Part shown: positions 16,629-34,063 of the stretch, piece after piece
Layout: each line of letters starts with the position of its first letter
Numbering within the stretch: the first letter of the stretch is position 1
Assembly (NCBI GenBank): GCA_017461725.1
Contig: JAFTXG010000003.1
Coordinates: 1 to 64,000 of the forward strand
Source: Lachnospiraceae bacterium
Lineage (GTDB): Bacteria; Bacillota; Clostridia; Lachnospirales; Lachnospiraceae
Reading direction: 5' to 3'
Length of the DNA stretch: 64,000 bases
Program-made: the position numbers and the translations under genes
The notes under the pieces: model-generated
The model's input: the letters and a program-made list of their open reading frames with translations, nothing else
Database searches by the model: none
What the model was told of the DNA's origin: nothing

Positions 16629-17522
16629 TTATGCTGTTGGCTGTAATCCTTTCCTGGCCCGTCTGAACCGATACTCCGTCCATACCTCCAGCGCCAGCGG
16701 CATCAGACACAGCACCGCATAGCCCAGATAAAACAGGCAGGACATGGGGGTGATCGGGTTAAAGACTATCCTGGGGTCGTACTGCATGTCAGTCTGGCGC
16801 AGCATGACGCCCATCATGGTCACCGTCAGACAGGCAAAGGTCGTGATCACATAGGCCCGGTCACGGTTGTCAAACCGGTAGATAGAGAAAGCCGTCCTCC
16901 CTCGGAGCGTACTTCCCCGGCTCTGCATGGATTCTGATGCCGAGGTCAGCGACTCGATGGTCCAGGTGATCAGCATGGACAATATTCTGAGTCCATTTCT
17001 CATCCTCCGCAAAAGATTTCCCTGATCGATACCGCGCCCAATCCCCCGCTGGGCCATATTGATCTTCCTCGCTTCCTTTTTGATCCGCGGTACCATTCGA
17101 AGCAAAATTGCCAGGAACAAAGACAGTCTCGGCGAAAGCCTTCCGAAGAGATAGACCACCTTGTCGGAGGAGAATACCGCGTACACGCAGGACATCCAGA
17201 TCATGACTCCGGCCGCCACAAAGCCCAGCACGAATCCGTAGACCAGCGCTTCCACTGTCATCCGGTTTCCGATAAAATTTTGCCGGATCACCGTCACGCC
17301 GAAATGGTGGTAGCTGCTGTAATACAGGGCGAATGCCACAACAAGGGGGAGCAGCAGAAGGTTGAAAAGCAATGCCTTCCCGCCGTTTCGCTTGACACTG
17401 TAGGCGAAGGCGCACAGAAAGGAGATCGCCAGAAAGATCGGGTGGACAAATCCGATCATCCCGGCGATGACCGCCCCGAAATAGATGAAGTTTACCGCAG
17501 GATGACAACGCTCAAAACCCAT
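16629..17522 (-). CDS. ecfT: ECF transporter T component, second copy
   Basis: 297 residues with about six membrane segments. Two short coupling motifs of EcfT proteins are visible: A-Q-R-G near residue 155 and S-R-G in S-M-Q-S-R-G-S near 200; these helices dock onto the ATPases. It follows the S component by 52 bases and is last of the riboswitch-controlled operon. It shares the N-terminal C-H-P-A-V-N-F motif with the first EcfT, so the two are paralogues. Two T components in one ECF operon are unusual; one may serve a different S component. Substrate inferred (cobalamin or precursor) from the riboswitch. Confidence 0.88.
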   Translation of the reverse strand: MGFERCHPAVNFIYFGAVIAGMIGFVHPIFLAISFLCAFAYSVKRNGGKALLFNLLLLPLVVAFALYYSSYHHFGVTVIRQNFIGNRMTVEALVYGFVLGFVAAGVMIWMSCVYAVFSSDKVVYLFGRLSPRLSLFLAILLRMVPRIKKEARKINMAQRGIGRGIDQGNLLRRMRNGLRILSMLITWTIESLTSASESMQSRGSTLRGRTAFSIYRFDNRDRAYVITTFACLTVTMMGVMLRQTDMQYDPRIVFNPITPMSCLFYLGYAVLCLMPLALEVWTEYRFRRARKGLQPTA

Positions 17523-17574: not shown

Positions 17575-18276
17575 TCACTCCACACTGTCCTCCAACATTC
17601 CATACTTCAGCTTGATCCGGTCCAGCTTCTCCAACAGCGGTCTTCCGAAGATCAGCATGGTCAGGATGGTACAGAGTCCCTGGCTCACATTGACCATGAA
17701 CCCGCTGCCCAGCATAGTGAGCAGACCGGCCACGGTAAACTCCGTGAGGCTGAGCACCGCAGTGCACAGATCCAACAGGGGGCCGATCACCAGGATGCAG
17801 CAAAAGAAGCCGAACACCGCCATGATCCAGGGCTTTTTCGGCAAGGAAAAGCGGGTAAACACCGCTCCGGCCAGCAGACCGCCCATGCCGTAGGCCATCA
17901 TCTGCCAGGGCAGATAGGGTCCCTGCATATAAAACAGATTGCTGGCGAGAGCACTGACCGCACCCACCAGAAATCCGGTCTCCGGCCCGAAGGCGATGCC
18001 GGAGAGCATGATGATCGCAAAGATCGGTTTAAAATGGGGAACCGGAACCACCAGTCGAGACACCGTCGCGATGGCGCACAGAACCGCGACCACCACCAGC
18101 TCTCTGGCCTGAGGCTTTCGCCCCTCGAAGGCCAGCAAAAACGGCACCAAAAGTTCCACAATGATTGCCGTGCAGGTCAGATAGTACCAGCGCCCCGGCA
18201 TTTTTGTCCCCACAAACAGGGTGAGGGGGATCAGCACAAAGGTCACCAGCAAAGTGGCTATCGTCGATTTCTTCAT
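17575..18276 (-). CDS. ECF transporter S component, probable corrinoid-binding subunit
   Basis: 233 residues with about six or seven membrane segments. The central region (A-V-L-C-A-I-A-T-V-S-R-L-V-V-P-V-P, then I-I-M-L-S-G-I-A-F-G-P-x-x-G-F-L-V-G) matches a group of S components that I know from Clostridia operons with cobalamin riboswitches. The start overlaps the EcfAA' stop by 4 bases. The S subunit sets the substrate; cobalamin or a corrinoid precursor is inferred from the riboswitch and the DUF4430 gene at the head of the operon, not from binding residues. Confidence 0.85.
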   Translation of the reverse strand: MKKSTIATLLVTFVLIPLTLFVGTKMPGRWYYLTCTAIIVELLVPFLLAFEGRKPQARELVVVAVLCAIATVSRLVVPVPHFKPIFAIIMLSGIAFGPETGFLVGAVSALASNLFYMQGPYLPWQMMAYGMGGLLAGAVFTRFSLPKKPWIMAVFGFFCCILVIGPLLDLCTAVLSLTEFTVAGLLTMLGSGFMVNVSQGLCTILTMLIFGRPLLEKLDRIKLKYGMLEDSVE

Positions 18277-19934
18277 CTGCCCGCCTCCTTATTCTGCCAA
18301 TACAGCTCCACCACATCCTCAGCAGACACCGCCATGGAAAACACATGACGGCTCATGCGGTTGGCCGCTGTCGTGTAAAAACTGTTATTGCCGAAGAAAC
18401 GGCGAGGTGTGTCCGTGGTCAACAGCTGACCGTCGAAAAACATGCTGACACGGTCCGCATATCTGGCGCAGAACTCCACATCGTGGGAGACCATGACAAT
18501 GGTGATCCCCTGCTCCTTCAGTTTTCCTAAAATACCCGCCAGCTTCTCCTTGAAAAAGCTGTCAATGCCCTTGGTGGGCTCATCCAACAGCAGAAGTCTG
18601 GGCTGGGTCAGCAGCACCTTGGCCAGCGCCGCTCTCTGCTGCTCTCCGCCGGACAGATCGTAGGGGTGGCTGTCCAACAACGGCTCGATCTCGCAGGTCG
18701 CCGCGATCCGGGCGATCAGCCCCTTGTCCCGACTCATCTCCGCCAGATCCTCGCGGACTGTCTTTTTCACAAACAGACTTTTCGGGTCCTGGGGCAGCAT
18801 GGCGAGACAATGGTTGAACAGTTCGCCGGTCTTATATTTCTGTATGGGTTTGCCGAATAGTTTCACTTTGCCCCGGTAGGGTCTGCAGATATCGCAGACC
18901 GCCTTCAGCGTGGTGGATTTGCCGGCGCCGTTTCCGCCCACGATGGCATACAGCTCCCCCGCAGGCACCTGCGCGCTGACACCGCGCAGCACATCCGGAC
19001 TGTCCTTCTCATAGCGGAACCACAGTTCCTTCAGTTCCAGGGCCGGTTCATCGATCTCTTCATCGAGCGGCTCCGCCGGAAGGGAGACCACCCTCGGAGT
19101 CGTCGGGAAGGCTCTCGTCAGCCAGTTTCTTCCCTCGCGAACGGTCAGCGGACACTCTCCCTCCGCCCCTGCTCCGTAGAACACCCGGACGGGGGTGGGC
19201 ATTGCAGTGAACATGGGATTATTCTGCTCCCACAGCAGCTTTCCGATCTTCTTCGGTGTGTCGTCAGCGATCACTCTGCCGCCGTCCATCACCACGGCCC
19301 GGTCCGCGTAGGGAAAAATGTCCTCCAGGCGGTGCTCAGTGATGATCACCGTGGTGCCCAGCTCCAGATTGATCTTGCGCACCGTATTCAGGAAATCCGA
19401 CGCCGCGATGGGGTCCAGCTGACTGGTGGGCTCGTCCAGGATCAGCACCTCCGGCTGCATCGCCATGATGGATGCCAGATTCAGCAGCTGCTTCTGGCCG
19501 CCGGACAGATTGGCCACGTCCCGGTGGAACCAGTCCTGGATACCGAAATAGCAGGCCATCTCTGCCACCTTGGCACGCATGGTCTTCTGGTCACAGCCCA
19601 GTGACTCCAGGCCGAAGGCCAGCTCATGCCACACCTTGTCGGTGACAATCTGATCGTCTGGATTCTGCATGACATAGCCGATCTTGGATGACTGATCCCG
19701 CTGGCTCACCTTCTCCAGCGGCACTCCGTTGAACAGTATGGTGCCGCTCCGCTTGCCGTGGGGCGCCAGCACCGATTTCAGCTGGCGGAGCAGCGTGGTC
19801 TTTCCGCTGCCGCTCCTGCCGCAGAGGACCAGATACTCTCCCTGATGAATACTAAGATTTACCTCGTCCAGCGAGCGCTTTCCCTTGGCCGCCGGATAGG
19901 AAAATGTCAGATTTTGGATCTCGAAATGTGCCAT
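18273..19934 (-). CDS. Fused ECF energy-coupling ATPase (EcfA-EcfA')
   Basis: 553 residues carrying two ABC ATPase domains in one chain. First: Walker A G-R-S-G-S-G-K-T-T at 39-47, signature LSGGQKQ and DEPTSQLD. Second: Walker A G-G-N-G-A-G-K-S-T, signature LSGGEQQR and DEPTKGID. About 60 divergent residues link them. Most ECF systems encode EcfA and EcfA' separately; fused forms are known in dedicated (group I-like) systems. It overlaps the upstream EcfT by 28 bases and the downstream EcfS by 4, indicating translational coupling. Confidence 0.92.
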   Translation of the reverse strand: MAHFEIQNLTFSYPAAKGKRSLDEVNLSIHQGEYLVLCGRSGSGKTTLLRQLKSVLAPHGKRSGTILFNGVPLEKVSQRDQSSKIGYVMQNPDDQIVTDKVWHELAFGLESLGCDQKTMRAKVAEMACYFGIQDWFHRDVANLSGGQKQLLNLASIMAMQPEVLILDEPTSQLDPIAASDFLNTVRKINLELGTTVIITEHRLEDIFPYADRAVVMDGGRVIADDTPKKIGKLLWEQNNPMFTAMPTPVRVFYGAGAEGECPLTVREGRNWLTRAFPTTPRVVSLPAEPLDEEIDEPALELKELWFRYEKDSPDVLRGVSAQVPAGELYAIVGGNGAGKSTTLKAVCDICRPYRGKVKLFGKPIQKYKTGELFNHCLAMLPQDPKSLFVKKTVREDLAEMSRDKGLIARIAATCEIEPLLDSHPYDLSGGEQQRAALAKVLLTQPRLLLLDEPTKGIDSFFKEKLAGILGKLKEQGITIVMVSHDVEFCARYADRVSMFFDGQLLTTDTPRRFFGNNSFYTTAANRMSRHVFSMAVSAEDVVELYWQNKEAGR

Positions 19935-20797
19935 TGGATGGCCTCCTTCATATGTAATACGGTCGGAATGGACAGATATGCGCCGTAGGCGATCAAACCC
20001 ACGATACGACTGTCAGTAATTGGTGCAATGTAAAGTTCGGGAGTGAAGGTCGCTTCAGTTCCGCCCTGAATCATCATCGCGATGACCACAGCCAGCAGTG
20101 CGCTCATCATCACACTGAGTACCCGATCTCTCCCTGTCGTGCGGTAAATCTGAAAGCTGGAGCGCTTGGCACAGCCGTATCCGCGGCTTCGCATGGAGTC
20201 GCCGGTGACTACGCCGCCCTCCAGCGCCCAGGAGGTCAGGGCGGACAACACCGTCAGCCCGTCATTCACCTTCATCCGATAGGTACTCTGCTCCCCCGCT
20301 CCCTTGCCGACGGACTTTCTGGCTCCGGCGATCTGCCTCGCCTGCCGAATGATATTGGGGATGAGCCGCAGCACCATCACCAGCAGCAGGGAGAGGGACG
20401 GGATCAGATTCCCAAACAGGCTGGTGAATTTATCTCCGGTCAACACCGCATTGTAGCACCCAAACCAGAGCATCATCACCAGAAATATCCCAGCCAGGTC
20501 AGCGCCGTACATCAGCGCCTCCGCCGTATAAGGGCGGTCAAACAGATAAAACAGAACATTCTCACCCTGCGTATTGAACAGTGGATTAATGAAGGTCATC
20601 AACAGAAATAATGGAATCAGCCCACCGATCATCCGCAGGCCCTTTCCCCCGTTCAGAAGCAGGTAATAACTGCCGGCATTCACCACACTCAAGGCAATGT
20701 AGGCAGGATGCTGGATCACCACGCCGAGGCCGATGGCCCCGATAAAAAAGCCAAAATTCACTGCCGGGTGACAGTTGGAAAATGCATCTCGATTCAT
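19907..20797 (-). CDS. ecfT: ECF transporter T component, first copy
   Basis: 296 residues from the ATG at 20797, chosen because it sits 5 bases after the preceding stop, has GGTGAT upstream and starts with the same M-x-R/E ... C-H-P-A-V-N-F sequence as the second copy. About six membrane segments. Coupling motifs: A-R-Q-I-A-G-A-R-K near 150 and S-M-R-S-R-G near 200. It overlaps the ATPase gene, so stoichiometric production is likely. It is the more plausible partner of EcfAA' given the overlap. Confidence 0.88.
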   Translation of the reverse strand: MNRDAFSNCHPAVNFGFFIGAIGLGVVIQHPAYIALSVVNAGSYYLLLNGGKGLRMIGGLIPLFLLMTFINPLFNTQGENVLFYLFDRPYTAEALMYGADLAGIFLVMMLWFGCYNAVLTGDKFTSLFGNLIPSLSLLLVMVLRLIPNIIRQARQIAGARKSVGKGAGEQSTYRMKVNDGLTVLSALTSWALEGGVVTGDSMRSRGYGCAKRSSFQIYRTTGRDRVLSVMMSALLAVVIAMMIQGGTEATFTPELYIAPITDSRIVGLIAYGAYLSIPTVLHMKEAIQWHISRSKI

Positions 20798-20801
20798 ATC
20801 A

Positions 20802-22370
20802 TCACCATGCGGGGGCTCCCACATCGGCACCGAGACCGTTGCAGGTGTAGAGCCACTCGATGGTCTCACCGCCGGTCAGATAGTAGCTGGAGCATCCGTA
20901 ATTGGGGAACCATCCGTTGACTCTGTACATCCATCCGGACTCGAAACCGCAGTCGAACTCGTAGAGCTGATTGATTCCCTCCACATAATAACTGTTATAC
21001 ATCGGTGTCCAGCTGAATTCCAGGTGGATACCTGCCGCACCACAGACACGCTGGAGCACATCAAATACCGTCTCTCCCTGGCTGAATTCCACGGTCACCG
21101 GGTAGAGGATCACACCGTCGCCAGGGACAAATTCTGCCTTGGCGGGGTCAAGATTGTCCATATTATCGAGGATCGTATCGCAGCGGATCGTGATCGTACA
21201 GGTCAGCTTGGGGGCCTCGGTGGGCGGTTCTGTCGGGAGCTCCGTCGGGGCTTCTGTCAGGGGCTCCGTCGGGCCTTCTGTCGGGGGTTCCGTCGGGCCT
21301 TCTGTCGGGGGTTCTGTAGGTGCTTCCGTCGGGGCCTGGTTAGGTGCCTCGGTAGGCTCCTGAGCAGGTGCTTCCGTCGGGGCTTCTGCCGGTGCTTCCG
21401 TAGATGTCACGGCAGGAGCCTGAGTCGATACTTCGTTCGGTGTCTCAGCTGAAGTATCTGTCGCTGCTTCGGTGGGCGCCTCCGTGACTGCTTCCGCAGA
21501 TGCCAGGGTGGAAGCATCCGTCAATGTCTCGGTTGATGCTTCTGTGGATTCCGCTGTCGATGCCTCGGTGGAAACTTGGGCGGCAGGCTCTGTCTCCGGT
21601 TCCGCAGGTGCATCCGCCTCAGTCGTTTCCTCCCTCGACGGCGAGGACTCCTCTGCCTGAGAAAGTGTCTCTGTCTCCGCGGGTTTCGTCTCACTGTTCA
21701 CCAATTCCTGTATCGCCTGCTGACGGTCTTTCATCAGCTGATCAATATCCTCATTGCTAAAGCAAAGTGTCTGTGTCTTATTTGCAGTGCGGATCTGACT
21801 GATGGTGAAATCATTCAGTGACTTGATTGACAGTTCATCCACAGACAGCTCATTCCCGATCCACTCCAGCTGCTGTCCCGCTCCAGCATCTTCCACCGTG
21901 CCGGAAAAAACGCTGACACTCTGGGCACCGCTGCGGACACTGAGCAGGGCAGTCGTTTCCTTAAATACAATATCCTTCCCGTCAAAAGTCAGTTTCACTT
22001 CGCTCAGGGCACTGACAAAGACCTCTCCCCCGGTCACCTCGGCAGAAAAATTCTCTGCCATAGGGTCGGTTATCCGTATCTTGGCACTCTGTCCAACCGT
22101 CAAGTAGCCGTCACCGATCTGTACTGTAGCGGCCGCACCCGGATTACAGCGAATCTCATCGCCCTCCCGGAGGACAGTTTCACTCTCCACCGGATAGATA
22201 ATGCCGTCACGCTCCAGGTTGACCGTGCCCCGGATGTCCGTCAGCAGCGCGGTATGCTCGTCCGCCTGATCAAACCATCCCCGGATGTATCCCACACCGA
22301 GAACACCGGCAGCAACAATGACCGCGATAATGGCCACCATCACCAGATTCGCAATTGTCTTTTTCTTCAT
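20802..22370 (-). CDS. Membrane-anchored FecR-like/DUF4430 surface protein, probable corrinoid receptor
   Basis: 522 residues. Residues 7-29 are a signal-anchor helix. Residues 35-170 resemble a FecR-type beta domain (D-I-R-G-T-V-N-L-x-R-D-G, then L-R-E-G-D-E-I-R, and V-F-S-G-T-V-E). Residues 230-380 are a long extracellular stalk of T-E-A-P/P-T-E repeats. Residues 388-522 are a DUF4430 domain: V-E-F-S-Q-G-E-T-V-F-D-V-L, F-E-S-G-W-M-Y-R-V-N-G-W and L-Y-T-C-N-G-L-G-A-D-V-G. DUF4430 resembles the cobalamin-contacting beta domain of transcobalamin and intrinsic factor. First structural gene after a cobalamin riboswitch and directly upstream of the ECF transporter, so it likely presents corrinoid to the S subunit. 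Function is inferred. Confidence 0.85.
   Translation of the reverse strand: MKKKTIANLVMVAIIAVIVAAGVLGVGYIRGWFDQADEHTALLTDIRGTVNLERDGIIYPVESETVLREGDEIRCNPGAAATVQIGDGYLTVGQSAKIRITDPMAENFSAEVTGGEVFVSALSEVKLTFDGKDIVFKETTALLSVRSGAQSVSVFSGTVEDAGAGQQLEWIGNELSVDELSIKSLNDFTISQIRTANKTQTLCFSNEDIDQLMKDRQQAIQELVNSETKPAETETLSQAEESSPSREETTEADAPAEPETEPAAQVSTEASTAESTEASTETLTDASTLASAEAVTEAPTEAATDTSAETPNEVSTQAPAVTSTEAPAEAPTEAPAQEPTEAPNQAPTEAPTEPPTEGPTEPPTEGPTEPLTEAPTELPTEPPTEAPKLTCTITIRCDTILDNMDNLDPAKAEFVPGDGVILYPVTVEFSQGETVFDVLQRVCGAAGIHLEFSWTPMYNSYYVEGINQLYEFDCGFESGWMYRVNGWFPNYGCSSYYLTGGETIEWLYTCNGLGADVGAPAW
21200..21660 (-). repeat. PTE/TEA-rich tandem repeat encoding a surface stalk
   Basis: Imperfect 12-24 base units (for example GGGGGTTCCGTCGGGCCTTCTG on the plus strand) encode (P-T-E-x)n and T-E-A-S/A units. 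Similar repeats occur in the surface protein at 46334-47740. Confidence 0.8.
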
Positions 22371-22745: not shown

Positions 22746-22754
22746 TTTGCAACT

Positions 22755-22925
22755 CTCGTTTACGGTAGGTCTTCTGGCTCCGGCATCATCACGATATCAG
22801 CCTTCCCATACATGCGTACAGTGACATAATAGATATCGCTCCTCCGTTACAGCGGCGGGACCGCGCAGGATTTACACCTGCTTCCCTGTTACCTCAGTGT
22901 TACCTGAGCACCAGTAAACATTTAT
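22755..22925 (-). promoter_or_regulatory. Cobalamin riboswitch controlling the ECF operon
   Basis: On the minus strand the characteristic segments occur in order: G-G-T-G-C-T-C at the 5' side, AGGGAAGCAGGTGTAAATCC with GCGGTCCCGCCGCTGTA (conserved core), then GTCACTG (B12 box region), GGGAAGGC, GATGATGCCGGAGCCAGAAG and ACCTACC. Spacing fits the AdoCbl-type cobalamin riboswitch. It lies 15 bases after a well-formed promoter and about 385 bases before the first structural gene, and should repress the operon when corrinoid is plentiful. Confidence 0.9.
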
Positions 22926-22946
22926 TTGATCTTGAATGATGGATTT

Positions 22947-23397: not shown

Positions 23398-23426
23398 TTG
23401 ACAAAAAATTAACCGGGTGTTAATCT
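23398..23426 (+). promoter_or_regulatory. Promoter of the riboswitch/giant surface protein gene
   Basis: Consensus TTGACA, a 17-base spacer and TAATCT, about 20-25 bases before the aptamer. Confidence 0.75.
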
Positions 23427-23444
23427 TAAAGATGAATAGTGAAA

Positions 23445-23625
23445 CAGTTTAAGTGCCTCGGCATCTGCCTTAGGACCCGGGGAGAATAGTGAATCCGGTG
23501 TGAATCCGGAACGGTACCGCCACTGTGAGCGTGGAGGTTCTGCACGAGACGAAAGTCAGTCATTGGAGAAATCTGAGAAGGCTGTGCAGACCCGATGAAG
23601 CGTGAGTCAGGAGACCTGCTTAAAC
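23445..23625 (+). promoter_or_regulatory. Cobalamin riboswitch controlling the giant surface protein
   Basis: Plus-strand conserved segments in order: AAGTGCC (5' stem side), GGGGAGAATAGTGAATCCGG with GTGTGAATCCGGAACGGTACC, GCCACTGTGA (B12 box), then a variable arm, AGTCAG..GAAGGC-like segments and GTCAGGAGACCTGCTT closing the aptamer. Two terminator-like hairpins follow directly, consistent with transcriptional control. It is a second, sequence-divergent copy of the element on the opposite strand at 22755-22925. Confidence 0.9.
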
Positions 23626-23634
23626 GGTGTCTTT

Positions 23635-23673
23635 CTGCCAGCCCTGCAAGTACGGGGAGTTGGCGGTTTTTTT
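23635..23673 (+). terminator. Riboswitch terminator hairpin 1
   Basis: CTGCCA...CCC pairs with GGG...TGGCGG, followed by TTTTTTT, directly after the aptamer. The stem is imperfect. Probably the expression-platform terminator. Confidence 0.6.
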
Positions 23674-23689
23674 GCGCAGAAAATCGGCT

Positions 23690-23726
23690 GCGGTGATCTT
23701 TGGATCACCGCGGCTTTTTTGTTTTT
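23690..23726 (+). terminator. Riboswitch terminator hairpin 2
   Basis: A perfect 9-bp stem (GCGGTGATC / GATCACCGC) with a 4-base loop, then GGCTTTTTTGTTTTT. A strong intrinsic terminator inside the leader, about 190 bases before the start codon. The remaining leader to 23914 holds no other feature that I can see. Confidence 0.75.
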
Positions 23727-23914
23727 CCGTATGTCAGTTCCAGGCGCTGCATATACGAAAACCAATAGTTTTCTGAGCGCATCGGTAAAATAAGAAAGAT
23801 GACCTGCACTGTTCAGATGATCGGGAAATAGTTCTTACCGATTAATATGTCGGATAGCTGTGACGTGTTACACTGCATACCGGCAACACATTCTGAATAG
23901 GAGGAAAAGAAAGA

Positions 23915-26900
23915 ATGAAGAAACGATTTTTAGCCGCGCTTCTGACACTGGCAATGCTGATCGGTATGCTGCCGACCAATGCGTTCGCCTCCGAAGTGCC
24001 GGAAAGCCCGGAAACGACTGCCAGCTCTGAATCGACAGTCACATCAGATCTGACATTCGATGTGACCGAGCCTGACGGTTATGTGACCGTCAGCTTTGTG
24101 GACAACGGTGTCCGCCCGGAAAATGCCGTTATTGATAATGAGGCACTTTACGGCACACCCGTAGGCACCATCATCGAAGCCACACAGGTACCCTACAAGG
24201 AGGGTGACAGTGTGGCAGCCGTCACTGTTCGTCTGCTGGATGCCATGAAAATCAGCTACGACTCCACCGGAACAGTCGACAGTGGTTTCTATCTGGCCGG
24301 CCTGGAGGAATTTGAACTGAACGGCACCTACTATGCCACCTTCAGCGAGTTTGATGCCGGAAGTCAGTCCGGCTGGTGTGTAAGACTGAACAACTGGCAT
24401 ATCAACCAGAGCAGTTCCGCTTTTGAAGTGGAGGACGGTGATGTGGTCAGCTGGCTCTACACCTGCCAGTACGGCGCTGATGTGGGCGCTGACTTCAGCA
24501 GCAAGAGCGCTGAGATCACCGACGTAGTGCTCAGTGACGAAAGCTTAAGCCTTGTTGCCGGTGAGGACGGAAACTACACCTGTGAAGTTCCCGCCGACAT
24601 TTCTGCCATCGCTTTTGAAGTGAAGCTGGCGAACTATGCCTCTGTTGTCACAGTCACCGTGGATGGCAATGAAGTGAAGTACCGTCCCAATGTGGCGATC
24701 AATGTCACAAACAGCAGTACCATCGTTATCTCCACCGCATTGGATTATATGGATGCGGAAAATAACAACCAGGTTACCACCTATACCGATTCGGTGACCA
24801 TTCAGCTCACCCCTGAAAATCAGGCCCCGACGGTGGTGGAAGGTGCTCCCACAACGATGGAAGCAGTCACCGGAAAGGAGATTTCCGTTGACTTAAGCAA
24901 CTTCTTTACCGATGCGGACGGCGATGCTCTGACCTACACGGTAAAAATCGAGACTCTGAGTCCGGAGCAGACGCTGGAAGGCTCTGTATTTACCGGCACC
25001 ATCCCGACTGCAGGTACTTATGAAGTCGTTGCAACTGCCAGCGACGGCGAGACCAGTGTCAGCCATACCGTTACCCTGACGGTTGCAGACGCCCCTAATA
25101 CTGCCCCCGTTGTTGCAGAAACTGCCCCCGCCACCATGGAGGCGACGGTAAACGAGGAGATTTCCGTTGACCTGAGTGCTTTCTTTAGTGACGCAGACGG
25201 CGATGCTCTGACTTACAAGGTGAAGATCGCCGCTCTGAATGTGGATCAGACCCTGGAAGGTTCCGTGTTTACCGGCACGATCCCGACTGCAGGAACTTAT
25301 GAAGTCGTTGCGACTGCCAGCGACGGTGAGGCCAGTGTCAGCCACACTGTTACCCTGACGGTGGCTGAGGCTCCCACCAACACCGCTCCGAACATCAAGG
25401 CAGCTTATGCAGAGACCAACAGCAAGACCTATGTTTACAGCACCAGCTACGTCTATATTTACATGGACGAGATCTTTGAGGATGCAGACGGCGACACGCT
25501 GACCTACTCCGCTACGCTCAATGGCGAGCCGGTCGAGATCACCTATAACAGCTACAGCAATCAATATTACATTCCGTTTGCTACCAAGCCTGCCATCTAT
25601 GAGTACAAGATCGTTGCCAATGACGGCACCGCAGATTCCGAGGTATTTACCGCTCTGTGTATCGGAACCAGTGCCACCATCACCGCCCCCGAGGATTCCG
25701 CACTGATCCCCGGCGGCACCGACTTCTATTACATTAAAGGCAGTGCAGAGAACGACACCTTCGCTCTGGACTACTCTCTGGATGTAGACTGCGACATCGT
25801 ACCCACATGGGAATCCCGGACTCCCGCAGTTCTTGCCCTCAATGAGGACGGTACATTCACGGTAGGCGACGTGACTTCCCGCAAGCAGGTTATGGTCGGT
25901 GTCACCTACGGCAAGGATAGCTGGGGTTCTACCCTGTATCTGGGTACAAAGTATATTAATATTCTGCCTGCGGCACCGACTGTAGCGGATATGACCGCAC
26001 CACTGGCGGAGCACGCAGATAACCAGACCGCGACGGTTGTCTCCAATGCATTCACCGGATGGTATTCCAGCGAATTTAATTATGAAATCGCTGATCCCTC
26101 TATCTGTGATATTACCACTTCCGGAACCTACGGTCTGAGCATCACCCCCAAGGCTCTTGGCCGCACCACAGTTACCGCAACCTTTAAGTATGACGAAACC
26201 ATCAAATGTACCTTTACGGTCACTGTTACCGGCCGTAGCCTGCAGATCAAGGATCAGCCCGAGTCTGACGACGTGACCTTTGCCGACGGCAAGACCGTAC
26301 AGCTGGAAGTTCTCGGTGCAGAGGAGGGCGAGACCTTCACCTGGACCATCAGCGACGAGACGGTTGCAACGATCGATGAGAACGGTCTTGTCACCGTGAA
26401 GAAGCTGGGACAGACCTACATCACTGCCGTTTCTTCCCTGTCTACCGAAGAAACCACTCTGAAGGCTTCCATGTACCTGCAGGTCAAGGAAGCGGACAAG
26501 GTTTATCTGGATGATCTGGCGGTAACTGATTACAGCTACTTCGATGGCTTTGTCAGCGCGAAGTCCGGCTTTAATTCCGCACAGCTTACCTATGACTGGT
26601 CCTTGAGCGAAACACGCTACACATACAACAAACTGGCATTTACCCCCTACTTTGACGCTGAAACCCTGACCGCAGTCCTGCACTATCAGGTCAGCGGCGG
26701 AGAATATCAGACCATGGATCTGACCAGCGGCACCGCGGTCAGCATCGCCAACGGCCTGAATCCCGGCGAAAATGTGGTAAAAATTGACGTTTATCCCACT
26801 GACAATGCGGCTAACGTGACAACCTACATTTTCAACATTTTCCGCCCCTATAACCCCAACAACACCATCTCCAGAATGACGATCTACCCGGGCGGCGAAA

Positions 26901-29900
26901 CGGCACTTTCCTATCCCACCTATCTGGAGAATAAGGAAGGTACGATTTTCCAGTGGAATGCCGAGACCGGTGAGTTCGTTACCGGTTGGAATGGCAAGCC
27001 TGCCACCGTCTGGAACAGCAACGTTTATACCTACAAGACCTTTATCTTCGGTTCCAGAACCGACTCTATCTCGGTGTATCCCACCTTCGCCTACGCAGGT
27101 CAGCGTGTCATGATCTATGTGGACGGAGAACCCGTCGAGGAGGCTGTTACCAACTGGAAGAGCAAGACTATCACCATCGACAAGGAAAATGGTACGGTCA
27201 TTGCGTTCCATGTAAATTCCGAGAAGTACCATGCTGAGCAGCTGGCAGCCGGCGTTGAGGATCCCTTCGCTGAGCCTGAGAAAATCTACACCCTTTATGT
27301 GGAGAGTGTGGAACCTCTGGGCATCGACTCCGAAATCCTGTCTGCAGAGCTGGAGGGCGGTGTGTTCTACCTGCCCGGATTCAGCAGCACCTCCTACACG
27401 ATCTCCGGTCTGATCCCGAGCGGTGAAACCACTGCAGATCTGACCTTCACCGTACCGGCAGGTATCGATGTCTACAAGACCTCGGTCAGCGATGCCAACA
27501 AGCTGACTCCCACCGGACAGGACGAGAATGGCAACAACCTTTACACCACTCCGATCGTCACCATCACCGGTACCGGAATGTATGCATATTCCACTACCAA
27601 TATTATCCTGCAGGTTACCGATGCGGATGGCAATATCGGAAAGACCCAGTACGCTTTCACGGTCAGCCAGCGCGGCGCAAAGGATATCTATCCCGATAGT
27701 ATTGTTGAATACCTGTGTCTGGGTTCCCAGTATACAAACTCTGGCGGCTATGGTCTCTACCCTGAGCGAACTCTGAAGGATGGCGGCGGCGTACTGTCCC
27801 TGGGTAACTTTGGCGGATACATCATTTACAAGTATGATAAACCGATTGAAAACAATCCCAACAACCCTTACGGTGTTGACTTTGTGATCTACGGAAACCC
27901 TTTCGGCAACGGCGCTCATGAGCCCGGCTATGTTCAGGTTTCCGAAGACGGTGAGACCTGGTACACACTGGCAGGTTCTGCCCACTATGACGACTACAAT
28001 GACTGGGACTACTCCATGACTTACACCAACAATAACGGTAAGTCAGCGTGGACGAACTCCGATGACGAGAGCGGCGAAATCTACAACTACCCTTCCGCTT
28101 CCCTGTATCCTTACTTCACCTGGACCGAGGAACTGGAGCAGTCCATGACTGTGACCGGTCCCAGACTGAACAGCTCTGCCAAGGATGCTTTCGGCAGCGC
28201 AGCCGCTGTTCTGCCCGTTTTCGGCTATGTGGATGTAAACACAAATGGCTCGATTACCGGTGCTTCCAATAACCCTTATAACCATCCCGGCACGCTGGCA
28301 GAGGGCGGCGATATGTTCGATCTCGACTGGGCAGTTGACGAGGACGGCATGCCTGTGGAGTTGGACAGCATTTCCTACATCCGCATTGCCACTGCATCCA
28401 GCATCTATGCCGGTGCCATCGGCGAAAAGTCCACCGAAGTCACCGCAGTGCTCCGTGTGACCAATGCGGCTGAGGAGGCTGTCGGCGTAACCGCAGCACC
28501 CACCGTGATCACCGTCAACGGAACAGAGATCACGGTTCCTGAAAACGGCGGTACCCTCGCTGTGGCAATCGACCCGGTTGACACTGCTGAGACGGAAGAG
28601 ACTCAGACCGCAGCATTGACTGTCGGTGTCACCGCTGCAGAAGACTCCAACATTTACATCAACGACACCTTCGGAGCTGAGCGCAGCTACACCGCGATCC
28701 CTGAGAAGGGCATCATCCGTATCATCGTTCAGGAGGGCGAGAAGGAACCCTATATCTGCTATCTGACCATCAGCGAGAAAATTGTTCCCACCTTCGCTGC
28801 CCTTGATTTTTATAAGAGTTCCAAGTCCTACAATAATGGTGAGGCCCCTCTGGAGATCACTCCGACCTTTGTTGGAACCACCTATACCGGCTATTCCATT
28901 GATATTCCGGACTATCTGAGTTCTGTTTATGCAGTCGGAACTCTGCCTGAGAATCTGGTGAACAGCGGTTTCAACGGCGCGATCATGTTCAGTAACGCAT
29001 GGGGAGGCTGGAGCGGCAGATGGGCCTCCGATGGCATCATCATGAGCTCTGTCAACTTCACCAAAGGTTATGTGAGCATCTATTTCAGTGATGCGCGCGA
29101 TGGCGAATACCAGATCAACGTTTCCAAGTACACAACCCTGAAGGGACTGACCATCGACGGTGTTGTGGATAAAGAGTTCAACCGCGACACCACCGGCTAT
29201 CACGCTTACGCTGACAGCACCGCGGCCGGTATTGCCATCACTCCCACCGCCTACAATTCTGCTTACGCGATCACCATCAACGGCACGACCGTGACCAGCG
29301 GTCAGGAATACGTTCTCGCGTACGATTGGGACGAGAACGGAAAGATGGAGGTCAAAATTGAAGTCAGCGGCGAGGGACTGACCACCTCTGTCTACACGGT
29401 AGAATTGGAAAAGCAGCCTCTGGAGGACGCTCCTTTCATTATGACTCAGCCGGAAGAGGCAGACTATATTGTCGGTGATACCACCGCAGCCCTGTCTGTT
29501 GTGGCAAGCGCAAACGGTGAGCTGGCTTACCAGTGGTACACCAATACCGCCGCTTCCAATGAGGGCGGTACCGCGATTGAAAATGCGACGGAATCCACCT
29601 ACACTCCTTCGTCTGAGACGGTTGGCACGGTTTATTATTACTGTGTGATCACCAACACGGACAAGACGACAGGCAATGTCACTGTATCCGAGGCGGCACG
29701 TGTGACCGTTGATCCCGATCCCACCCCCGTGGCAATCCTCACTAACCCGGGATCTGCTTTGCCGGATGATTACGAGTATGGCTGGGAGACCGGATATGTT
29801 TATACTCCCGGCGAAGAAGCAACGGCGCTGACCGTTCAGGCCACCTCTGCTGCCGAAGGCGGCACCTGGTCTTACCAGTGGTATCGCACCTCCAACAGAG

Positions 29901-32900
29901 GATATAACATCAACTCCTACGCCCTGCTGTCCGGCGCGACAAGCGAAAGCTACACTCCGGACACCGATTTGAGCCTTGCGAACGATGGCGGATATTATTA
30001 CTGGTGTAAGGTGACTTATAGCTTCAAGGGTAAGAACTACGAGACAAAATCCGTCACCGGCGAGACCTACACCACCGGCGAAGGCGAAAAGGCAAAAACC
30101 TATGATGTAAATGCGGCTTACGTATTCATCAAGGTAACCGAAGCAGCCATCCCCGAAATCACCAAGCAGCCTGTCAGCGCAGAATATGTGCTGGGCGATA
30201 CGGCAACCGCGCTCTCCGTCATTTCCACCAAGGCAGACGGCGGAAAAGTAACCTATCAGTGGTATGTAAATACCGAGAACAGCACGGAGAACGCAGCCGC
30301 CATCGAAGGTGCGCGTTCCTCCAGCTACAACCTTGGCACCCTGAGCGAGGTTGGCACCAACTACTATTACTGTGTGATCACCAATACGATCCAGGGTTAC
30401 ACGGCCAGCGTAACCTCTGAAATCGCAGAGATCACGGTCAAGACTGTACAGGAGATGGTCGGCACCAGCCTTAAGGGTTCCGGTACCGAGACAGATCCCT
30501 ATCAGCTGGCAACCGCCGAGGATTATAAGACTCTGGCAGACCTTGTTGCCAAGGGCGTATCCTTCAGCGGAATGTATTTCAAACAGCTGAATGATATCGA
30601 ACTTCCCGCAGATTGGGCAGGCATCGGCGCATTGAAGGCCGGAACCACCAATACCAGCAGCGGAAGAAACATCAATCCTTTCTCCGGCATATTGGACGGC
30701 AATGACAAGAAGCTGACCTTTGCCTACGGCAGCGTGCCGCTGTTTAAGTATGTGCGCGAAACCGCCGTTAAGAATCTGAAGATTTATGGCGAGTATATCG
30801 CTGAGGACGGTCTGGTTTCTGATTATGTTGTAGACTATGGTACGGACGGAAGCTACAATTCCGGCACGGGCGGAAGCTATGCAGCCGGTTGTCCCGATGT
30901 CATCGACATCACCAATGTGACGATCCTGTCCGGCACCACCATCAAGGGAAGCGGCTTTATCGGCGGATTTGCTTCCGGTGGAAATATTGTAAACATTAAC
31001 AACTGTACCGTAGAGTCCGGCGTTAAGATCGGCTGGGATGCCGAGGCAAATGCACCTGCCGGAAGCAGCAGGGTAGGCTCCTTCGGCGGAGACTTTAACG
31101 GAACTATCATGGATTCCACCAGCGCAGCAGCCGTATATGGTGTGAACTATGTGGGCGGTATCGTTGGCAGCAAGGGCCAGAGCATGGGTCCCTACAAGAT
31201 CATCAATTGTTCTTTCACCGGTGAAGTGATCGCTACCGGAACCATGGTCGGCGGTATTGCAGGCGGTGGTTACACCTCCTCCAGTGCACCGAACAGTCCC
31301 TGCGCTACCATCGAGAACTGCTATGTTGCAGGAAAGGTCACCGGAACCGACAAAGTCGGCGGTATCTTCGGCGGTGAGGCAGCTGTTTCCCAGTGTTGGG
31401 CTAACGGTGCCGGCTACATCCGCAACAACCACTTCTACGGAACCGTGACGGCTACAGAGGGCACTGCAGGCGGAATCATCGGCTACATGCACTCTCTGGA
31501 CAGATACAATGTGATTGAGAACAATTTCTTCGTTGACACCTGCGGTGCTGACAAGGGTATCGGCGCAGTCAATGCGGCCGCTGTGGATCTCACTTCCGAG
31601 AAATACGGCCGCGATGATGATCCTCTGGGCGAGGATGCGGACAAGCTGACCACGGCCATGACGGCAGAGGAATTTAAGGACGAAACCGTCAGAGACCTGC
31701 TGAATGTTCACGAGTCCAGCCTCCACAACTGGATTCAGAGCGACAACCATCCCGTTCACAGCAAGGACTCCATCGCATACCTGTTGGAAGTATCCGGCGA
31801 CTATGAGACGGAGTATGTGATCGGCGACGAGCTGGATCTGACCGGCATGACTCTGACTGCAACCTGGAGTGACGGCTCCGTGACCAATCCCACTCTGGAT
31901 GAAGCGACGGTCACCGGATTTGACAATACTGTTTGCGGCCAGCAGACCCTTACCATCAGCTATGGTGCTGCAAAGGCAGAGATCACTGTTACGGTACAAA
32001 AAGATCCCGCAGACCCGATCAATGTTTCACTGACCATCTCGGTTAAGGGTGAAGTCGTGATGGCACAGGAAGAAATCACCGTTTCGGATGTAAACGGCGA
32101 TGGCCGGATCAATGTGGACGAAGCCCTCTATGCGGCTCACGAGTCCGGATATACCGGAGGCGCAGCCGACGGATACGCTTCTTCCGTTGGCAGTTACGGT
32201 TTGGCTATCGATAAGCTGTGGGGCGATGTAAGCGGCCTCTATGGCTACTGGCTGAACAATGCTTCCTGCTGGAGCCTTGATGATGAGGTGAGAGCAGATG
32301 ATTATCTGGTAGCCTTTGTTTACCAGAACTCCGACTGGAGCGATGCGTACACCGCATTCGATGAATTTACCTACACCGCAGACGGTGAACTGACCGTGAC
32401 CCTGAAGAAGGCCGGTTATGACCAGAACTGGAATACCGTATTCAATCCTCTGGCTGGCGCGACTATCACCGTTTACGATGCGGACGGCAAGGCAGTGGAT
32501 GCTTCCAAATACACTGCAAAGGATAACGGTGACGGTACCTATACCCTCGCCTTTACCGAGTCCGGCGATTATACGCTGATCGCCTCCAAGGGTGCAGAGA
32601 TTGTTCCCGCAGTGTGCAAGGCAGCCGTGACCGCCGAACAGGCAGAGGCGGATGTCGAGAACATCTACAAGACCACCGGCGATTACCTGACAGACCTTGC
32701 AGAGGAGTACGGCATCACCGTCGGTTCCACCGGTGGTGAGTGGCTCGTCATCGGCCTGGAGCGCGCTGACAGAAACATTCCCGATGAGGAAGGTTATTAC
32801 GACGCAGTTGTTGAATATGTAAACGCAAAGATCAACGACAAGGAACAGCTCCACAGAGCAAAGTCCACTGAAAACTCTCGTGTCATCCTTGCGCTGACCG

Positions 32901-34063
32901 CAATGGGCTACGATGTGACCGACGTGGACGGACACAACCTCCTTGTAGGTTTGAACTCCATGAGCTATCTGAAGAAGCAGGGCATCAACGGTCCTATCTG
33001 GGCACTGATCGCCTTTGACTCTCACGATTATGAGATTCCCGAGGGCGGCGATGTGACCCGCGAGGCACTGGTAGATTACATCCTCTCCGTACAGCTGGCT
33101 GACGGCGGCTGGACACTGTCCGGCAGCGCTGCTGATACCGATATGACCGGTATGGCTCTGCAGGCTCTGGCTCCTTACTACGAGACCGATCCCGAGGTTA
33201 AGGCGGCCGTAGACAGGGCGCTGAATACCCTGTCCTCCATGCAACTGGCGGACGGAAGCTTCGGTTCTGTGGATGGCAGCTGCAGTGAGTCCTGTGCGCA
33301 GGTAATCGTGGCGCTGACTGCTCTGGGCATCAACCCCGAAACCGATGAGCGATTCGTAAAGAACGGAAGCTCTGTTGTGGATGCACTGTGCAGCTTCTAT
33401 GTAGACGGCGGCGGATTCATGCACGTGCCCGACAGCAAGCTGGACGGTATGGCTACCGAGCAGGGCTACTACGGACTGGCAGCGTACTTCCGCTTCCTGA
33501 ACGGACAGACCAGTCTGTACGATATGAGCGATGTGGAACTGGATATCACTCCTGAGGAGCCGGAGAACCCTGATGAGCCCGAAACCCCTGGAGACTTCGA
33601 GTATCTCATTATCTCCGGTGCAGACAGTACCTGGAAGAAAGCTTCCACCGGAAAGGTAGCTATCATCTGCAACGGTGAGTTTTCAGACTTTACTGCTCTT
33701 CTGATGGATGGCACCGCGATCGATCCTTCCAAGTACACCGCAGTATCCGGAAGCACCATTGTAACGCTGGAAAGCGCATATCTGGAGACTCTGTCTGTGG
33801 GAACACATACGGTAACCTTTACATATGTTGACGGCGAGGTATCCACCGGACTGACAGTTCTGGCTTCATCGATTGAGCCAGGAACTACAGCGCCCAGCCA
33901 GCCTTCAGTTCCCGCAACTCCTTCCACTCCTGCTGCTCCCGATTCTGAAACACCGGACACCGGCGATCACCAGAACAGTGCAGCGATGTTTGGAACCATG
34001 TTCGGAGCACTTGCTCTGGCAGCGATCCTGATCGCACTCAAGAAAAAATATCGCTTCAACTAA
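23915..34063 (+). CDS. Giant cell-wall-anchored intrinsic-factor/transcobalamin-like protein
   Basis: 3382 residues. 1-25 signal peptide; about 46-195 DUF4430 module ending L-Y-T-C-Q-Y-G-A-D-V-G; 303-590 three cadherin-like D-A-D-G-D repeats, two almost identical; about 775-858 Big2-like; about 1259-1522 a domain with G-N-F-G-G-Y-I-I-Y and Y-G-N-P-F-G that I know from Bacteroidota surface proteins; about 1845-2175 Ig-like repeats (Y-Q-W-Y, Y-Y-Y-C-V-I-T-N); 2186-2620 GLUG-type beta-helix (G-G-I-V-G, G-G-I-A-G); Big3-like to 2694; about 2700-2825 second DUF4430-like module with an EF-hand-like D-V-N-G-D-G-R-I-N; about 2909-3200 alpha/alpha-toroid (L-A-D-G-G-W, L-A-D-G-S-F-G) like the alpha domain of intrinsic factor. 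The end is T-P-D-T-G-D (3346-3351), a membrane helix and K-K-K-Y-R, a sortase sorting signal. The riboswitch supports corrinoid capture; binding is inferred. Confidence 0.9.
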   Translation: MKKRFLAALLTLAMLIGMLPTNAFASEVPESPETTASSESTVTSDLTFDVTEPDGYVTVSFVDNGVRPENAVIDNEALYGTPVGTIIEATQVPYKEGDSVAAVTVRLLDAMKISYDSTGTVDSGFYLAGLEEFELNGTYYATFSEFDAGSQSGWCVRLNNWHINQSSSAFEVEDGDVVSWLYTCQYGADVGADFSSKSAEITDVVLSDESLSLVAGEDGNYTCEVPADISAIAFEVKLANYASVVTVTVDGNEVKYRPNVAINVTNSSTIVISTALDYMDAENNNQVTTYTDSVTIQLTPENQAPTVVEGAPTTMEAVTGKEISVDLSNFFTDADGDALTYTVKIETLSPEQTLEGSVFTGTIPTAGTYEVVATASDGETSVSHTVTLTVADAPNTAPVVAETAPATMEATVNEEISVDLSAFFSDADGDALTYKVKIAALNVDQTLEGSVFTGTIPTAGTYEVVATASDGEASVSHTVTLTVAEAPTNTAPNIKAAYAETNSKTYVYSTSYVYIYMDEIFEDADGDTLTYSATLNGEPVEITYNSYSNQYYIPFATKPAIYEYKIVANDGTADSEVFTALCIGTSATITAPEDSALIPGGTDFYYIKGSAENDTFALDYSLDVDCDIVPTWESRTPAVLALNEDGTFTVGDVTSRKQVMVGVTYGKDSWGSTLYLGTKYINILPAAPTVADMTAPLAEHADNQTATVVSNAFTGWYSSEFNYEIADPSICDITTSGTYGLSITPKALGRTTVTATFKYDETIKCTFTVTVTGRSLQIKDQPESDDVTFADGKTVQLEVLGAEEGETFTWTISDETVATIDENGLVTVKKLGQTYITAVSSLSTEETTLKASMYLQVKEADKVYLDDLAVTDYSYFDGFVSAKSGFNSAQLTYDWSLSETRYTYNKLAFTPYFDAETLTAVLHYQVSGGEYQTMDLTSGTAVSIANGLNPGENVVKIDVYPTDNAANVTTYIFNIFRPYNPNNTISRMTIYPGGETALSYPTYLENKEGTIFQWNAETGEFVTGWNGKPATVWNSNVYTYKTFIFGSRTDSISVYPTFAYAGQRVMIYVDGEPVEEAVTNWKSKTITIDKENGTVIAFHVNSEKYHAEQLAAGVEDPFAEPEKIYTLYVESVEPLGIDSEILSAELEGGVFYLPGFSSTSYTISGLIPSGETTADLTFTVPAGIDVYKTSVSDANKLTPTGQDENGNNLYTTPIVTITGTGMYAYSTTNIILQVTDADGNIGKTQYAFTVSQRGAKDIYPDSIVEYLCLGSQYTNSGGYGLYPERTLKDGGGVLSLGNFGGYIIYKYDKPIENNPNNPYGVDFVIYGNPFGNGAHEPGYVQVSEDGETWYTLAGSAHYDDYNDWDYSMTYTNNNGKSAWTNSDDESGEIYNYPSASLYPYFTWTEELEQSMTVTGPRLNSSAKDAFGSAAAVLPVFGYVDVNTNGSITGASNNPYNHPGTLAEGGDMFDLDWAVDEDGMPVELDSISYIRIATASSIYAGAIGEKSTEVTAVLRVTNAAEEAVGVTAAPTVITVNGTEITVPENGGTLAVAIDPVDTAETEETQTAALTVGVTAAEDSNIYINDTFGAERSYTAIPEKGIIRIIVQEGEKEPYICYLTISEKIVPTFAALDFYKSSKSYNNGEAPLEITPTFVGTTYTGYSIDIPDYLSSVYAVGTLPENLVNSGFNGAIMFSNAWGGWSGRWASDGIIMSSVNFTKGYVSIYFSDARDGEYQINVSKYTTLKGLTIDGVVDKEFNRDTTGYHAYADSTAAGIAITPTAYNSAYAITINGTTVTSGQEYVLAYDWDENGKMEVKIEVSGEGLTTSVYTVELEKQPLEDAPFIMTQPEEADYIVGDTTAALSVVASANGELAYQWYTNTAASNEGGTAIENATESTYTPSSETVGTVYYYCVITNTDKTTGNVTVSEAARVTVDPDPTPVAILTNPGSALPDDYEYGWETGYVYTPGEEATALTVQATSAAEGGTWSYQWYRTSNRGYNINSYALLSGATSESYTPDTDLSLANDGGYYYWCKVTYSFKGKNYETKSVTGETYTTGEGEKAKTYDVNAAYVFIKVTEAAIPEITKQPVSAEYVLGDTATALSVISTKADGGKVTYQWYVNTENSTENAAAIEGARSSSYNLGTLSEVGTNYYYCVITNTIQGYTASVTSEIAEITVKTVQEMVGTSLKGSGTETDPYQLATAEDYKTLADLVAKGVSFSGMYFKQLNDIELPADWAGIGALKAGTTNTSSGRNINPFSGILDGNDKKLTFAYGSVPLFKYVRETAVKNLKIYGEYIAEDGLVSDYVVDYGTDGSYNSGTGGSYAAGCPDVIDITNVTILSGTTIKGSGFIGGFASGGNIVNINNCTVESGVKIGWDAEANAPAGSSRVGSFGGDFNGTIMDSTSAAAVYGVNYVGGIVGSKGQSMGPYKIINCSFTGEVIATGTMVGGIAGGGYTSSSAPNSPCATIENCYVAGKVTGTDKVGGIFGGEAAVSQCWANGAGYIRNNHFYGTVTATEGTAGGIIGYMHSLDRYNVIENNFFVDTCGADKGIGAVNAAAVDLTSEKYGRDDDPLGEDADKLTTAMTAEEFKDETVRDLLNVHESSLHNWIQSDNHPVHSKDSIAYLLEVSGDYETEYVIGDELDLTGMTLTATWSDGSVTNPTLDEATVTGFDNTVCGQQTLTISYGAAKAEITVTVQKDPADPINVSLTISVKGEVVMAQEEITVSDVNGDGRINVDEALYAAHESGYTGGAADGYASSVGSYGLAIDKLWGDVSGLYGYWLNNASCWSLDDEVRADDYLVAFVYQNSDWSDAYTAFDEFTYTADGELTVTLKKAGYDQNWNTVFNPLAGATITVYDADGKAVDASKYTAKDNGDGTYTLAFTESGDYTLIASKGAEIVPAVCKAAVTAEQAEADVENIYKTTGDYLTDLAEEYGITVGSTGGEWLVIGLERADRNIPDEEGYYDAVVEYVNAKINDKEQLHRAKSTENSRVILALTAMGYDVTDVDGHNLLVGLNSMSYLKKQGINGPIWALIAFDSHDYEIPEGGDVTREALVDYILSVQLADGGWTLSGSAADTDMTGMALQALAPYYETDPEVKAAVDRALNTLSSMQLADGSFGSVDGSCSESCAQVIVALTALGINPETDERFVKNGSSVVDALCSFYVDGGGFMHVPDSKLDGMATEQGYYGLAAYFRFLNGQTSLYDMSDVELDITPEEPENPDEPETPGDFEYLIISGADSTWKKASTGKVAIICNGEFSDFTALLMDGTAIDPSKYTAVSGSTIVTLESAYLETLSVGTHTVTFTYVDGEVSTGLTVLASSIEPGTTAPSQPSVPATPSTPAAPDSETPDTGDHQNSAAMFGTMFGALALAAILIALKKKYRFN
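24826..25370 (+). repeat. Tandem near-identical cadherin-like repeat within the giant gene
   Basis: Two units of about 270 bases (24826-25091 and 25105-25370) share long identical stretches such as T-G-T-I-P-T-A-G-T-Y-E-V-V-A-T-A-S-D-G. They are a recent intragenic duplication and a possible site of copy-number variation. Confidence 0.8.

Follow-up and report, generated by a model that had tools for sequence, protein, structure and literature searches.

Background

Intrinsic factor and transcobalamin carry an alpha domain and then a beta domain in one chain, the two facing each other across the ligand. To our knowledge, extracellular competition for vitamin B12 has been little described in Gram-positive gut bacteria, and the BtuG and BtuH proteins of Bacteroides serve as the model. 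For the BtuH family both a B12-bound structure and binding by SPR have been reported, and three homologues from Firmicutes were already noted, one of them near a predicted ECF cobamide transporter (PMC8941943). A search of the open-access literature turned up no paper that connects DUF4430 or toroid proteins with B12 uptake in bacteria.

As a case study, we consider the window, a stretch of 64,000 nucleotides at the start of a contig from a Lachnospiraceae bacterium, which probably encodes a Gram-positive corrinoid-capture system feeding an ECF-CbrT transporter and expressed as two transcripts in this gut Clostridium.

Two riboswitches and a giant surface protein

The ORF of the giant protein, P0001 (23915..34063, + strand), encodes 3382 amino acids, as the initial annotation had it, and starts with an ATG behind a good Shine-Dalgarno sequence. 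Upstream lies a cobalamin riboswitch aptamer (23434..23637, +; Rfam RF00174, 100.3 bits against a gathering score of 31.5, E 6.6e-24), and directly behind it a terminator scan placed tandem terminator-like hairpins with U-runs (about 23635-23667 and 23686-23715, +). The region 23635..23715 folds with an MFE of -45.6 kcal/mol (z -4.2; 0 shuffles as low). Both the riboswitch and the terminators initially described before this gene are confirmed, and the hairpins are probably an OFF-type expression platform. A second, divergent cobalamin riboswitch (22747..22930, -; RF00174, 109.8 bits, E 1.3e-26) drives the transport operon; the two are 503 bp apart, and the genome has only three cobalamin riboswitches according to Rfam. 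Both transcripts would be subject to OFF regulation. Neither this second riboswitch nor the operon behind it was mentioned in the initial annotation.

P0001 has a signal peptide, PKD/Ig-like spacers and a C-terminal LPXTG-like tail with a TM helix, and is predicted to be a secreted or surface protein. Near its end there is a CBM_X2-like domain (aa 3239-3310; 33629..33844, +; Pfam E 7e-5, under the cut-off), followed by the sorting-like tail (33953..34048, +), which reads ETPDTGD, then the TM helix, then a basic end, KKKYRFN. This tail scores 14.6 bits with NCBIfam TIGR01167, below the cut-off of 15.9, and a search of the organism's own, 86%-complete genome for a sortase (PF04203) gave no match; the sortase anchoring asserted at the outset is unproven.

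A divergent operon of the ECF-CbrT type

The divergent DUF4430/ECF operon (16629-22370, -) begins with a membrane-anchored protein of 522 aa (20802..22370, -), which has an N-terminal TM segment, a long linker and a C-terminal DUF4430 domain (20844-21077; Pfam E 1.6e-14, 54.6 bits against a cut-off of 23.8 for PF14478), and it is this C-terminal end that holds the best DUF4430 domain of the window. It is followed by a transmembrane EcfT subunit (19907..20869, -), a fused EcfA-EcfA' ATPase (18273..19934, -; TIGR04520, 4.4e-102), a CbrT-type (vitamin B12) S-component (17575..18276, -) and a second EcfT-like subunit homologous to the first (16629..17522, -). The profile that included both EcfT proteins has 5d3m_D, an EcfT, as its best PDB match (3.5e-17), and that of the S-component has 6fnp_A, CbrT (3.9e-20; 6FNP is ECF-CbrT), the next-best match being RibU at 4e-7.

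The operon thus contains a CbrT-type S-component together with its EcfT and EcfA partners, as expected of an ECF-CbrT member. It resembles the Lactobacillus delbrueckii transporter in these components, but differs from it in forming a dedicated cassette with a fused EcfA pair, often with two EcfT genes, and in being accompanied by apparently dedicated extracellular capture proteins.

DUF4430 domains and a BtuH-type domain

P0001 was initially credited with two DUF4430-like modules, of which only the N-terminal one stands. This domain (aa 67-193; 24113..24493, +) is matched by the family HMM with an E-value of 1e-33, although with Pfam PF14478 itself it remains below the cut-off (16.2 bits); a genome search gave E 1.5e-3. 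The C-terminal candidate (aa 2704-2890; 32024..32584, +), which we call DUFC and delimited by an iterated HMM, carries an EF-hand-like insertion and has about 30 copies among related loci; DUF4430 HMMs give no match over about 2704-2890, and the likeness seen by hhalign (E 1.3e-4) is local, covering only 34 columns. DUFC appears to be a recurring domain of its own kind and not a recognisable DUF4430. A predicted model of DUFC with the toroid behind it gave no transcobalamin or intrinsic factor match over both domains among the matches listed, and offers no sign that DUFC is packed on the toroid in the manner of intrinsic factor.

The statement that the mammalian beta domain resembles DUF4430 holds: the beta domain of human TCN2 passes the Pfam cut-off (24.9 against 23.8 bits) and, judged by this score, is a DUF4430 member. 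The hhalign likeness of DUF4430 to transcobalamin is modest (E 9e-4 in a single comparison, Prob 23%), and a PDB sequence search with the DUF4430 profile matched nothing credible. The most likely beta partner of the toroid is the DUF4430 domain of the 20802..22370 protein, the class of which is joined to a toroid in single proteins of some relatives.

A domain at about aa 1285-1520 of P0001 (27767..28474, +) is a homologue of the domain with which Bacteroides BtuH and BtuG1 bind B12, with phmmer matches to 8blw_B (BtuG1 H-domain, 3.6e-13) and 7biz_A (BtuH2, 2.6e-12) and profile matches over about 220 residues at E 1.7e-32 to BtuG1 and 1.1e-26 to BtuH2. The initial annotation lacked this domain. 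It had compared the protein to BtuG, which itself is absent; the relative in Bacteroides is the BtuH domain. Homology at 1e-26 to 1e-32, surface display and a cobalamin locus are shared with BtuH2 and the BtuG1 H-domain of B. thetaiotaomicron, whereas the P0001 copy lies inside a protein of 3382 aa that is not a lipoprotein, and there is no BtuB. In an alignment with BtuH2 and BtuG1, the BtuH2 tetrapyrrole contacts His476, Tyr510, Trp511 and Trp577, most of those made by BtuH2, are not conserved in the clostridial copies, while every copy has Asn399, at the nucleotide loop, and most have Phe401.

The alpha/alpha toroid

The C-terminal toroid of about 290 residues was correctly recognised: aa 2911-3208 (32645..33538, +) match a family HMM built in this analysis at E 4e-131, and the predicted structure (AF2) has a pLDDT >90. 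Its fold is like that of the intrinsic factor alpha domain, VIA giving the model a Z of 18.1 with intrinsic factor (2pmv), 18.7 with haptocorrin (4kki) and 18.5 with rat transcobalamin, in matches that span 241-252 residues. The structural match that had been anticipated is therefore there, but squalene-hopene cyclase, at Z 23.4, is above all of these; since its Z of 23 exceeds the value of about 18 for the carriers, the fold alone cannot single out intrinsic factor, and the toroid is nearer to squalene-hopene cyclases both in sequence and in fold.

At the sequence level, the match to Pfam Prenyltrans (E 4.6e-4) is below the Pfam cut-off; Cobalamin_bind (PF01122) has no match in P0001 or in the five bacterial relatives scanned, against 393.8 bits for human TCN2; a PDB sequence search with the toroid profile returned no intrinsic factor or transcobalamin chain among the matches listed; and hhalign with the transcobalamin alpha domain is weak (Prob 4-6%). 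By hand alignment, Asp176 and Gln273 of transcobalamin, which we take to be corrin contacts, line up with an Asp and a Gln conserved in the toroid. Since hhalign puts the Asp in the same place but shifts the Gln by one position, this match is not counted as evidence.

The cassette in related Clostridia

The set of toroid, DUF4430 and ECF T, A and S genes recurs in related Clostridia, often behind a cobalamin riboswitch. Among 33 loci fetched with the toroid, DUF4430 genes are present in 32 and EcfA-type ATPase matches in 24, and 16 of the 17 riboswitches found there have a cassette gene no more than 2.5 kb downstream. Conversely, the 80 loci fetched with DUF4430 include a toroid gene in 58, ECF genes in 73 and a riboswitch in 45 (counted with a model built in this analysis). 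Ruminococcus bromii, Blautia and Flavonifractor have the cassette, no riboswitch being seen in the stretch examined of some cassette loci, including those of Blautia, Flavonifractor and Hominisplanchenecus. The cassette's DUF4430 profile is positive in 24/299 sampled genomes of the phylum.

The order of beta then alpha first described for the window is correct there, but it is not fixed: 31 related proteins have DUF4430 before the toroid and nine the reverse, and L053, L056, L060, L061 and L063 are single proteins with the mammalian order, toroid then DUF4430. Some toroid proteins of the same cassette, such as L053 and L060, are compact and devoid of adhesin-like spacers.

Proposed mechanism and alternative explanations

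Surface corrinoid capture, also proposed initially for this Gram-positive cell wall, is well supported by the two riboswitches, the CbrT-like ECF operon, the BtuH-family domain and the presence of the cassette in many Clostridia, the sortase anchoring apart. At low cobalamin levels inside the cell, both riboswitches would permit expression, and P0001 would show its putative corrinoid-binding domains (BtuH-type, toroid and DUF4430) outside the cell on long Ig-like spacers. The membrane-anchored DUF4430 protein of the divergent operon, most likely the beta partner, would then pass the vitamin on to the neighbouring ECF transporter by way of its CbrT-like S-component. Corrinoid binding by the P0001 and DUF4430 domains, the pairing of this particular DUF4430 with the toroid, a sandwich of two domains packed around B12 and the hand-over to the S-component are all conjectural steps of this scheme.

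We consider it an even question whether this is a true bacterial carrier like intrinsic factor, in which toroid and DUF4430, fused or as separate proteins, would enclose a corrinoid at the Gram-positive cell surface and pass it on to ECF-CbrT. The initial proposal of both halves of intrinsic factor holds at the level of domain families, TCN2 beta passing as DUF4430 and the toroid fold matching the alpha domains of intrinsic factor, haptocorrin and transcobalamin at Z about 18, and some bacterial relatives fuse both domains in the same order. It is weakened by the squalene-hopene cyclase Z of 23, by a toroid without a PF01122 match, by DUFC not being DUF4430 and by a model without packing as in intrinsic factor. 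The bacterial system also differs from the animal carriers in that the window's DUF4430 domains are at the N-terminus of P0001 and on a separate membrane protein, and in being riboswitch-controlled and adjoining an ECF transporter, with corrinoid binding presumed.

Capture might instead be carried out by the BtuH-type domain, the DUF4430 domain or both, with the toroid serving as scaffold or spacer and making no contact with the vitamin. We judge this rather unlikely. In its favour, a proven B12 binder is among the homologues of the BtuH-type domain, generic toroids are the nearest matches of the toroid, and the human transcobalamin beta domain, isolated from the alpha domain, can bind both B12 and cobinamide (PMC5599065). 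However, the BtuH-type domain was found in only 6 ORFs of related loci, as against the toroid gene in 58 of the 80 DUF4430-fetched loci, and its clostridial copies have lost most of the BtuH2 B12-contact residues.

That the toroid is a surface enzyme, terpene-cyclase-like or glycan-active, with a secondary link to B12 genes, seems very improbable, even though squalene-hopene cyclases and other enzymes with toroids rank first among its matches in both sequence and fold. A class II terpene cyclase needs the catalytic DXDD motif, whereas this position reads DxDM in P0001 (DTDMTGM), both Asp being invariant and Met the consensus at the fourth position in 29 sequences; the proteins are also secreted single toroids, and the gene is repeatedly located behind cobalamin riboswitches and next to ECF genes of the CbrT type. 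Slightly less credible still is a cobalamin-regulated adhesin, with DUF4430, toroid and PKD domains binding host or bacterial surfaces and co-regulated with B12 uptake: P0001 shows features common in adhesins (its size, the PKD/Ig repeats, the CBM_X2-like domain and a tail like those of cell-wall proteins), but compact toroid proteins without spacers occupy the same cassette in relatives (L053 and L060, for example).

A cassette with domains of the intrinsic factor type hints at the means of B12 competition open to Gram-positive gut bacteria, has implications for their rivalry with the host and with Bacteroides over the vitamin, and supplies directly testable proteins. It also bears on the origin of animal B12 carriers which, if the carrier reading with toroid and DUF4430 is true, would share ancestry with the bacterial system in at least the beta domain. 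In the organism's own 86%-complete genome no CbiD was found, and CobS is present.

A giant protein behind a cobalamin riboswitch

The only Rfam RNAs in the 64-kb window are two cobalamin riboswitches that point in opposite directions (23434-23637, +, 100.3 bits; 22747-22930, -, 109.8 bits). The first lies upstream of a single 3382-codon ORF with a Shine-Dalgarno sequence (P0001; 23915-34063, +), and its aptamer is immediately followed by two strong hairpins, each with a U-run. An aptamer followed by terminator hairpins and U-runs is the typical arrangement of a transcriptional OFF switch. The 3382-residue protein described in the initial annotation as preceded by a cobalamin riboswitch and terminators is confirmed. 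Another strong terminator-like hairpin (23204-23241, +) lies between the divergent riboswitches, with no obvious gene for it to end.

Pfam recognises Ig-like/PKD modules in P0001 and, weakly, both the C-terminal alpha/alpha toroid and the N-terminal DUF4430. Using HMMs that we built from relatives, the toroid (aa 2911-3208) scores E 4e-131 and the N-terminal DUF4430 (aa 67-193) 1e-33, so both are firm. The toroid therefore stands as first annotated and, of the two DUF4430 modules proposed, the N-terminal one is retained; the second (aa 2704-2890) is not matched by our DUF4430 HMM and is a separate recurring domain whose likeness to DUF4430 is local only. This domain (32024-32584) carries a DxNxDGxxxxDE EF-hand-like insertion, and about 30 copies occur across related loci, frequently adjoining the toroid. 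Sortase anchoring, also proposed, appears doubtful, as the C-terminal tail falls below the LPXTG family cut-off and a search of the organism's own genome (86% complete) revealed no sortase. The P0001 gene is adjoined by an AraC-type regulator gene (34298-35254, -), the top NCBIfam match of which, below cut-off, is the YSIRK-adjacent surface-antigen regulator family.

P0001 also contains a domain (aa 1291-1512) similar to the H-domain of Bacteroides thetaiotaomicron BtuG1 (8blw) and BtuH2 (7biz); a profile of four clostridial BtuH-type copies gave E-values of 1.7e-32 and 1.1e-26, respectively, better than the single-sequence match. A crystal structure and SPR both show BtuH2 binding B12 (PMC8941943), and BtuG1 has an H-type domain and was studied in complex with BtuB (PMC10404256). 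A homologue of BtuH from Firmicutes, encoded close to an ECF cobamide gene, was already recorded (PMC8941943). In a comparison of the window copy with six related clostridial ORFs (L031 and L076 being the same gene fetched twice), BtuH2 Asn399, at the nucleotide-loop site, is conserved and Phe401 mostly so; His476, Tyr510, Trp511 and Trp577 are not conserved, which means that the clostridial domain must contact its ligand differently, so that binding cannot be assumed.

The divergent ECF operon

The products of the divergent operon (22370->16629, -) are a protein anchored in the membrane and ending in a DUF4430 domain (54.6 bits), an EcfT (profile match 3.5e-17), a fused EcfA matching TIGR04520, an S-component and another EcfT. 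In the profile comparison, the top match of this S-component is CbrT, the one for vitamin B12 (6fnp, 3.9e-20), far above RibU (4e-7). The two EcfT-like genes (16629-17522 and 19907-20869, both -) flank one EcfA/EcfS pair, a layout found again in many related loci.

Comparison with intrinsic factor and transcobalamin

Human transcobalamin (query residues 19-427 match 2bb5 chain A exactly) has PF01122 across its alpha domain, and its beta domain passes the DUF4430 cut-off (24.9 versus 23.8); the transcobalamin and bacterial beta domains thus belong to one Pfam family. The toroid, predicted at pLDDT >90 in two predictions using different alignments, had been likened to the intrinsic factor alpha domain, and a match, whose absence would have refuted the idea, was indeed found (Z 18.1), together with haptocorrin (Z 18.7) and rat transcobalamin (Z 18.5); these alignments cover about 241-252 residues, at 3.2-3.6 A. 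With the same model, squalene-hopene cyclase reaches Z 23.4 and prenyltransferases Z 18-19, and Foldseek lists transcobalamin among these toroid families; the predicted fold is thus right but not specific. Among the structure matches listed, none covers the toroid together with the preceding domain, and the models accordingly lend no support to intrinsic factor-like packing in cis.

Distribution of the cassette

A family-level search with P0001 aa 2690-3215 gave matches in 28 of 150 genomes. The 33 loci around them contain a DUF4430 gene in all but one case (32/33) and an EcfA-type ATPase match in 24. The Rfam scan, which covered 32 loci (all except L062), returned 17 cobalamin riboswitches and no other RNA family except one tRNA; 16 of the 17 are followed on their own strand by a cassette gene no more than 2.5 kb away. 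Five loci (L053, L056, L060, L061 and L063) encode both domains in one chain, about 600-700 aa long, with the toroid followed by DUF4430, the domain order of transcobalamin; the stretch linking them has hydrophobic segments that look membrane-like. Taking all loci together, the toroid comes first in 9 proteins and DUF4430 in 31. A 999-aa open frame running off its contig (L033:2-2998, -) contains two whole toroids and part of a third.

Scanning GTDB species genomes for the DUF4430 domain recovered more than 570 relatives, the best 80 loci of which show the recurring order toroid, DUF4430, EcfT, EcfA, EcfS. Many of their contigs are cut short, and a toroid gene is present in 58 of the 80, ECF genes in 73 and a riboswitch in 45, the last according to a local model built from 16 of the aptamers found in related loci. 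Named hosts include Ruminococcus bromii, Blautia wexlerae, Flavonifractor plautii and Clostridium polysaccharolyticum. The riboswitch reaches Rfam level in L085 (R. bromii) and L133 (C. polysaccharolyticum) and is below the Rfam cut-off in the named loci L081, L100, L106, L112 and L141; the local model detects it in L141 and L111 (both R. bromii). The R. bromii DUF4430 and toroid protein (L141:7530-9434, +; also L085 and L111) has a type I dockerin at its C-terminus (Pfam E 8e-11 in L141), through which it may be attached to a scaffoldin rather than to the wall. One MAG labelled Bacteroides sp. (L093, JAMPBO010000002.1) carries clostridial DUF4430/ECF genes behind a riboswitch; its label is probably wrong.

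Proposed corrinoid capture and salvage

The riboswitch, ECF-CbrT, BtuH domain, DUF4430 and toroid are each of already known kinds. In the open-access papers searched, only six of which name DUF4430, neither the toroid/DUF4430/ECF cassette nor intrinsic factor-like proteins of bacteria are described. We read the cassette as a B12 transporter with coupled capture of corrinoids at the surface, and infer corrinoid binding, the toroid/DUF4430 pairing and hand-over to the S-component. In the most likely scheme, both transcripts would be switched on when cobalamin is scarce, P0001 would hold corrinoid-binding domains out past the wall, the corrinoid would be gripped by toroid and DUF4430 (in trans in the window, but in cis in certain relatives), and the DUF4430 protein tethered to the membrane would hand it to the CbrT-type S-component.

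CbiD was not detected in the organism's own genome (86% complete), which encodes CobS and one protein with a B12-binding domain. The genome's third cobalamin riboswitch (L146, C23:183945-184140) precedes a lipoprotein gene whose product, judged by its sequence, reads like a BtuF-type substrate-binding protein; at this completeness, the whole fits a corrinoid salvager.
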